Shown here: one piece after another, positions 1 to 1,066 of the stretch | How the letters are laid out: each line of letters starts with the position of its first letter | How positions within the stretch are numbered: the first letter of the stretch is position 1 | Source: Pseudomonadota bacterium | GTDB lineage: Bacteria; Pseudomonadota; Gammaproteobacteria; Burkholderiales; SG8-39 | Direction of reading: 5' to 3' | Assembly (NCBI GenBank): GCA_026399375.1 | Contig: JAPLRD010000044.1 | Coordinates: 1 to 46,449, forward strand | DNA: 46,449 nt | Position numbers and translations under genes: made by a program | Notes under the pieces: model-generated | What the model was told of the DNA's origin: nothing | Databases searched by the model: none | What the model saw: the letters and a program-made list of their open reading frames with translations, nothing else

Positions 1-141
1 CGCCTCAATCTTCCCAATTTCTCCATGGTGATCATCCCCTTTGTTCCTGCCTATAAATTAGGCAGGATAGGCTGAACACCCTGGTCAATTTTGAACGCGC
101 AGTACCTCGTTCAAATGGTCAATTTACGTCGCGCGCCAACA
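1..141 (-). mobile_element. Probable end of an insertion sequence (IS21-like organisation suspected), continuing off the left edge
   Basis: TGGTCAATTT is repeated at 82-91 and 116-125. A TG-starting tip (minus strand TGTTGGCGCGCGACG) lies at about 141, exactly where HEPN similarity of the neighbouring ORF stops. A minus-strand ATG with purine-rich RBS (AAAGGGG) opens a reading frame at about position 35 or 26 that runs off the window. Confidence 0.4.
46..66. repeat. Perfect inverted repeat / hairpin in the putative IS leader
   Basis: CCTGCCTA-TAAAT-TAGGCAGG, 8-bp arms, between the IS tip and the putative transposase start. Confidence 0.6.
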
Positions 142-392
142 TGCGTGAGGCTCTGAAAGACGAGATAGCGATTTTCGGAACGATAGCCATGCCAGCGCAA
201 GGCGGCAAGCGCCAGAGCGTGCGCCGCGTTATACGCCAGATCGAAGCGGCTTTCGAAACTGACGCTGCTATTGCCTGCATCGCTCAAACGGACCTTGCCC
301 GAGCGAAGAAGACCAGCGAACTCGGATTGCGCGGGCGGCTCGGTCTTGAGTTGACCGATGCGTACGAGGTTATCGAGCGGTTGCAGAGACAT
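111..392 (-). pseudogene. Truncated HEPN-domain protein (partner of the MNT nucleotidyltransferase)
   Basis: MSLQPLDNLVRIGQLKTEPP...FDLAYNAAHALALAALRWHGYRSENRYLVFQSLTH resembles HEPN partners of HTH-MNT proteins; the C-terminus is replaced by VGARRKLTI-stop at the presumed IS boundary. The start overlaps the MNT gene by 23 bp. Confidence 0.6.
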
Positions 393-1029
393 CGGCTTCT
401 TTACCGATCAACGGCAGAAACTTGCCTGCCAGTACTTTGGTGAGGAAGGGATTGCCGTCCCTGCGTCGCTGAATGAACTCGGCAGGCGTATAGAGTGTCG
501 GGTTCACCCGCCGTGCAAGCTGCTCTTCTGCCGTGGCAAGCGCCGTATAGACTTCCTCGAGGGTTAGATTGTCAGCGACAATCAGTACATCGATATCGCT
601 CGTTGCGGTCTCGCTTTTCTTGGCGATCGAACCGTACACAAGGGCAAGGTGGACGCGCTCCCCCAGTGCCGACAGCGCGGCACGCAGCGGATCGACGAGA
701 CCGACTGTCTTTACGACGAGGCCGTGCAATTCCTTGAACACGGACGCGTCACGGTTGGCCTGATAGTGTTTTTGGTTGCCTATTCGCGACACGACCACAA
801 GGCCGCTTTCGGCCAAACGCCCCAGTTCCCGCTGTACGGCGCCGGAACCCGCCCCCACCAAGCGAATCAGTTCGCTTGCAAAAAAACTGCGTTCTGGCTG
901 GCCGAACAAGAGACCTAACACCCGCTGCTGGGTTCCGGAGAAGAGCGCATCTGCGAGGCCTGTGCGCATTGGCTGCGCTCCGTGGCCAGGCTGGCGCGTT
1001 GTCCGCGGTTTGGCCTTCTTTGTACCCAT
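370..1029 (-). CDS. HTH (ArsR-like winged helix) fused to MNT-type nucleotidyltransferase domain
   Basis: N-terminal wHTH (LLFGQPERSFFASELIRLVGAGSGAVQRELGRLAESGLV) and nucleotidyltransferase motif GSIAKKSETATSDIDVLIV. An alternative start is the Met at position 969 (MRTGLADALF). Confidence 0.8.
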   Translation of the reverse strand: MGTKKAKPRTTRQPGHGAQPMRTGLADALFSGTQQRVLGLLFGQPERSFFASELIRLVGAGSGAVQRELGRLAESGLVVVSRIGNQKHYQANRDASVFKELHGLVVKTVGLVDPLRAALSALGERVHLALVYGSIAKKSETATSDIDVLIVADNLTLEEVYTALATAEEQLARRVNPTLYTPAEFIQRRRDGNPFLTKVLAGKFLPLIGKEADVSATAR

Positions 1030-1037
1030 TTTGGGTA
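1023..1037. promoter_or_regulatory. Operator-like palindrome O1 overlapping the MNT start codon
   Basis: TACCC-ATTTT-GGGTA, perfect 5-bp arms; the minus-strand ATG (1027-1029) lies inside it. Confidence 0.65.
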
Positions 1038-1066
1038 TTATATTACCCTTTTTGAGTATATTGCAA
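1037..1066 (-). promoter_or_regulatory. Sigma70-like promoter of the MNT gene
   Basis: Minus strand TTGCAA (1061-1066), 18-nt spacer, TATAAT (1037-1042), then 7 nt to the ATG. Confidence 0.65.
1044..1058. promoter_or_regulatory. Second operator-like imperfect palindrome O2 in the promoter spacer
   Basis: TACCC-TTTTT-GAGTA, one mismatch from O1 arms, exactly 21 bp from O1. Confidence 0.6.

Follow-up and report, generated by a model that had tools for sequence, protein, structure and literature searches.

The sequence preceding the winged-helix and minimal nucleotidyltransferase (HTH-MNT) antitoxin-like gene at one end of the window, the 46,449-nucleotide stretch of DNA analysed here, is best explained as an autorepressor operator-promoter that includes a leaderless start, a reading to which we assign a probability of roughly 0.87. 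Dimers of the winged helix would bind two dyads on one face of the DNA, with a spacing of 21 bp. The dyad of the upstream operator (op1) occupies the -35/-10 spacer, and that of the downstream operator (op2) spans the last base of the -10, the predicted transcription start, and the sequence up to codon 3. Bound protein would shut out RNA polymerase and so set the level of the HTH-MNT/HEPN operon, and we infer repression rather than activation. In the clade to which the window belongs, RNA polymerase would start at the ATG or within 0–3 nt of it, giving a leaderless mRNA without a Shine-Dalgarno (SD) sequence, such that the operator doubles as the first codons of the HTH-MNT gene. Leaderless, self-repressing antitoxin-type regulators are already known; the novelty here lies in a cassette of fixed two-turn spacing that overlaps the start codon and diverges in step with the recognition helix.

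The minus strand of the window reads, in order, a -35 box TTGCAA (1066–1061), 18 nt of spacer, a -10 box TATAAT (1042–1037), the seven bases ACCCAAA, and the start codon ATG (1029–1027) followed by GGT ACA, in agreement with the promoter proposed in the first-pass annotation (TTGCAA-18-TATAAT-7-ATG). Op1 (TACTCAAAAAGGGTA, 1044–1058, minus strand) lies inside the -35/-10 spacer, whereas op2 (TACCCAAAATGGGTA, 1023–1037, minus strand) begins on the last base of the -10 and runs through the start codon and codon 2 into the first base of codon 3. That annotation had placed the dyads so as to flank or overlap the -10 at a spacing of 21 bp, or two helical turns, and both points are borne out. It had also described two TACCC-N5-GGGTA palindromes, which is correct for op2, a perfect dyad, but it overlooked one arm mismatch in op1; the 1044–1058 dyad is TACCCTTTTTGAGTA, or TACCC-N5-GAGTA, with 4/5 arm pairs matching. 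A generic scan finds twin dyads with a 21-bp pitch at just one place in the 46 kb, against a mean of 0 under a Markov null (40 resampled windows) and 0.0005 per 300 bp under a locally matched null. One copy of the strict single palindrome is present in the window, where 0 would be expected. Genome-wide there are six places with the loose dyad pattern and four with a control pattern read backwards, and these are paired only at the HTH-MNT promoter.

Both dyads are present throughout a sample of 81 loci, composed of the window and 80 HTH-MNT homologues (about 52–78% identity) mostly from Beta- and Gammaproteobacteria. Two dyads of the TRCCC-N5-GGGYA type with a pitch of exactly 21 bp are found in 81/81 loci, a count that takes in two loci with long N-termini, and the start codon sits at the same operator position (position 30) in every one, as ATG in 78, TTG in two, and GTG in one. 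Codon 2 encodes glycine in 81/81 (GGT 65, GGC 15, GGA 1), so that neither the palindromes nor the Met-Gly N-terminus, whose absence from homologues had been set beforehand as grounds for refutation, is missing from any locus. The gene and its operator together span the Beta-, Gamma- and Alphaproteobacteria, on both chromosomes and plasmids.

The per-position information profile of these loci resolves into blocks corresponding to the -35 TTG (-7 to -4 relative to op1), op1 (1–15), the -10 (TAAnAT/TATAAT; 17–22), and op2 (22–36). Information is near zero upstream of -8, the -35 TTG being the only conserved element before op1 in the 81 loci, and is low beyond +37, which argues against recent common descent of the whole stretch as the source of the conservation. 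The edge of constraint falls inside codon 3, the first base of which is A in 80/81 loci, and this edge together with the restricted third base of codon 2 points to selection on DNA. The downstream dyad had been described as encoding Met-Gly-Thr; the Met-Gly overlap holds family-wide and Thr3 is not conserved, residue 3 being variously I, T, M, N, K, S or H. Because this residue varies, the constraint acts on the DNA, and selection on an MGT peptide is ruled out. In five Alloalcanivorax loci (L034–L036, L045 and L047) there are extra half or full sites resembling CCCA-N3-TGGG in the 60 bp or so before op1, which suggests that three or more operators may be present in these promoters.

The proposed leaderless start follows from the promoter geometry. 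At sigma-70 promoters transcription is expected to start at the A of an ATG placed 8 nt after the -10, or 1–3 nt before it, and RNA polymerase should therefore begin there or 1–3 nt upstream at the window promoter. A leader of 1–3 nt is possible and would weaken leaderless initiation. The alternative that survives best, which we nonetheless consider unlikely, is that the operator is as described but that a different promoter gives the transcript an ordinary leader, or that translation begins at Met21 (position 969, codon 21), in which case the gene would not be leaderless. In its favour, Met21 of the window is preceded by an SD-like GGAG, from which a shorter form of the HTH-MNT protein could be made, and distant relatives start downstream of the same operator. 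However, there is no second conserved promoter element upstream, the start codon never shifts relative to op2 among the 81 loci, and in 31/78 loci the start codon in op2 is the only ATG, GTG or TTG before the HTH. An alternative start preceded by an SD is absent from 77/78 loci, with Met21 of the window as the sole exception. Codons 4–15 are rich in A+C (0.67 versus 0.48 further downstream) in 76/78 loci, although this can also stem from the composition of the N-terminal tail. The leaderless transcript raised as a possibility in the first-pass annotation is thus supported as a prediction by the -10/ATG geometry, by the loci with a single available start, and by a spacing too short to accommodate an SD; it is likely for the clade of the window and is not universal in the family. 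In Burkholderia cenocepacia, transcription regulators are over-represented among leaderless transcripts (PMC4603805).

In many distant relatives the start codon lies about 20 nt downstream of op2 (about position 48–58), in some cases with SD-like sequences, and the positions of the -10 and the operator are unchanged. Leaderlessness is therefore not needed for the operator to work. In L108, L149, L151, L152, L162 and L199, among others, the twin operator is retained and the start codon follows it by 13–20 nt, and these loci offer a natural comparison of leadered and leaderless genes within one family. The two arrangements cluster strongly on a tree of 110 rows, with 12 changes versus 25.8 expected for shuffled labels and 0/500 shuffles as low, although 12 is probably too many since a few loci (L139, L145 and L198) are out of register in the generic dyad scan, making the labels somewhat noisy. 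Clustering with several changes indicates that operator geometry is constant, and that fusion with the start codon is mainly a trait of the larger clade that includes the window.

The identity of the bound protein is addressed by where the site occurs and by how its sequence changes. Palindromes such as these could suit any winged-helix or TetR-type regulator, and a host regulator other than the HTH-MNT protein might in principle bind them. When 300 genomes of the order were scanned blind to the protein, with a strict twin pattern and any gap from 1 to 26, ten twin places emerged (control pattern, 0); a pattern this strict would overlook imperfect sites, that of the window itself among them. 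All six of those with a 21-bp pitch are at an HTH-MNT gene (about 39–70% identity by tblastn), whereas none of the four with other pitches is. A regulon beyond the gene itself was considered and rejected, as there is no second paired site in its own genome and, with the strict pattern, none in the 300 genomes except at homologues.

A further 89 loci from genomes and plasmids, mostly more distant, were searched in a sequence-agnostic manner, scoring arm complementarity and dyad similarity at pitches of 16–30. The best pitch is 21 in 66/89 of these, and in 43/46 of those scoring 16 or more, while in shuffled sequences the best pitches are spread over 16–30; the 21-bp pitch is thus kept while the arm sequence changes. 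At least four classes of arm can be recognised by the helix that accompanies them: TRCCC/GGGYA with GAVQREL, TTCAT/ATGAA with VATIKREL, TCCCC/GGGGA or GACCC/GGGTC with GRGT(V/I)(S/R)REL, and TAGCN/NGCTA with GTLH(K/R)EL. Across 142 loci, recognition-helix distance predicts operator distance when the rest of the protein is allowed for (partial r 0.44, 0/500 permutations), with the provisos that homologous loci are related, so that counts are not independent, and that the test controls kinship only roughly. In the same 142 loci the 12-residue window that best tracks operator divergence, out of the whole protein, is GSGAVQRELGRL (residues 61–72; 814–849, minus strand), which is the recognition helix region. 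This covariation leads us to infer that the protein and the operator are partners. On a Rhizobium leguminosarum plasmid (L120, about 1430–1530), several TCCA/TGGA dyads, with at least two pairs at a 21-bp pitch, sit upstream of an HTH-MNT homologue of 33% identity.

Binding by another host regulator accordingly appears quite improbable, because the site travels with the HTH-MNT gene across three proteobacterial classes and between chromosomes and plasmids, is found only at that gene, and follows its recognition helix in sequence. Conservation, exclusive location, and tracking of the helix together strongly support autoregulation by the gene's own winged helix, as had been suggested from the window. 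A last possibility, that RNA structure or translation-initiation signals rather than protein-DNA binding account for the conservation, could draw on the overlap of op2 with the start codon and codon 2, but is barely credible given that op1 and the left half of op2 are upstream of the predicted start, that in distant relatives both dyads persist although their sequences differ and the start codon has a different place, and that the conserved edge is inside codon 3. For the first two of these reasons control by an RNA hairpin is rejected. The earlier suggestion that mRNA and DNA control could be coupled is likewise unlikely by the hairpin route, since the only part of the operator present in a leaderless RNA would be its right half.

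The HTH-MNT gene (370–1029, minus strand) encodes a 219-residue protein with a disordered N-terminal tail, a winged helix (residues about 25–95), and a minimal nucleotidyltransferase domain (GSx10DxD at 133–147), the last matching Pfam Polbeta/NTP_transf_2. In the motif G133, S134 and D147 are invariant and D145 is at least 90% conserved. The predicted structure (pLDDT 85.6) has MNT and winged-helix folds and resembles MNT antitoxins and ArsR/MarR-type winged helices; a sequence search of the PDB gave weak ArsR-type and MNT matches only. The protein matches PADLOC PDC-M05A (E 3e-79) and an intact homologous partner matches PDC-M05B (2e-67), with the M05B of the window itself being incomplete; these matches place the gene in PDC-M05, a candidate phage-defence pair of HEPN/MNT-like type.

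The partner HEPN gene is truncated in the window (111–392, minus strand), encoding 93 residues versus about 140, with homology ending at about 144 as judged from an alignment of 27 intact partners. No Pfam family was found for the partner, nor any match in a sequence search of the PDB. The model of an intact partner (pLDDT 94) is closest to the HEPN protein 2hsb (TM 0.66–0.74, Foldseek E 2.5e-3) and also resembles MntA-HepT structures. R96-x5-H102 is near-invariant in the region of the last helix, and the RN motif (R105-N106) has Y110 after it where a His would be expected; one partner (L010:3635–4066), for example, has RNLAEY at the usual RN motif. The sequence that cuts off the gene (1–144) is the end of a repeated element that the genome contains in four near-identical copies, each of them at a contig end, the segment from about 144 recurring at the three others with 99–100% identity. 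The truncation probably reflects insertion of a mobile element, with the loss of roughly 50 residues from the C-terminal end, a misjoin at the repeat being less likely. It is doubtful that the window copy still acts as a pair, although its operator and HTH-MNT gene are intact.

PDC-M05 consists of a nucleotidyltransferase and a HEPN protein and its antiviral role is unconfirmed (PMC12988326); expression of PDC-M05A has been reported to rise when B. cenocepacia is infected by phage (PMC12584637). The HTH-MNT protein and an intact homologous partner match the two components and the two-gene arrangement is the same, the difference being the truncated M05B. No description of an operator or of regulation for PDC-M05 or a winged-helix MNT protein was found in the literature searched, and a search of phage records for HTH-MNT homologues found none. 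The HEPN/MNT type VII toxin-antitoxin systems (MntA-HepT of Shewanella and the Legionella HEPN-MNT) share the MNT fold with GSx10DxD and an adjacent partner of HEPN fold. In contrast, the window protein has an additional N-terminal winged helix and scores 25.1 bits with the NCBIfam MntA model NF047752, below the cut-off of 60, and the partner in its family does not have a clear RN-x3-H-x-Y arrangement.

In the type IV AbiE systems, the winged-helix antitoxin (AbiEi, Rv2827c) autorepresses its operon via repeated operator sites over the promoter (PMC7319586). The HTH-MNT protein would resemble it as a winged-helix antitoxin with repeated sites over its own promoter, repression being predicted from sequence in this case. 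However, the AbiEi sites are 23-bp inverted repeats 3 bp apart, rather than two 15-bp dyads at a 21-bp pitch, and the HTH-MNT arrangement differs further in that one dyad contains the start codon and a nucleotidyltransferase is fused to the regulator. Established leaderless repressor genes include acuR, lambda cI and Tn1721 tetR (PMC3017554), and the regulator gene cvkR is also leaderless, although its authors could not test CvkR autoregulation (PMC9938897); all four have a regulator gene on a leaderless mRNA, as predicted for HTH-MNT. AcuR represses its own gene, and the inverted-repeat operator that overlies the acuR promoter is conserved among relatives (PMC3017554), but there is a single inverted repeat there rather than two in-phase dyads, one reaching into the coding sequence.

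We suggest, tentatively, that candidate defence antitoxins throughout an entire family possess an autoregulatory two-dyad cassette with a 21-bp pitch, in which sequence is rewritten along with the recognition helix while geometry stays fixed, and that in one large clade this cassette has merged with the start codon, making repressor occupancy, promoter and leaderless start a single element. If true, the merged cassette would link expression to circumstances in which leaderless translation is favoured (stress, for example, or a phage taking over translation), and perhaps to the modification state of the MNT/HEPN pair as well. The finding gives a widespread candidate defence system an operator that is precisely defined and open to test, and the pairing of arm classes with types of recognition helix at a constant pitch amounts to a natural operator code. 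It also suggests that annotated start codons upstream of operator position 30 in the HTH-MNT family are misplaced. The interchange of leadered and leaderless starts under one unchanged operator may be useful in asking why small regulators are so often leaderless.
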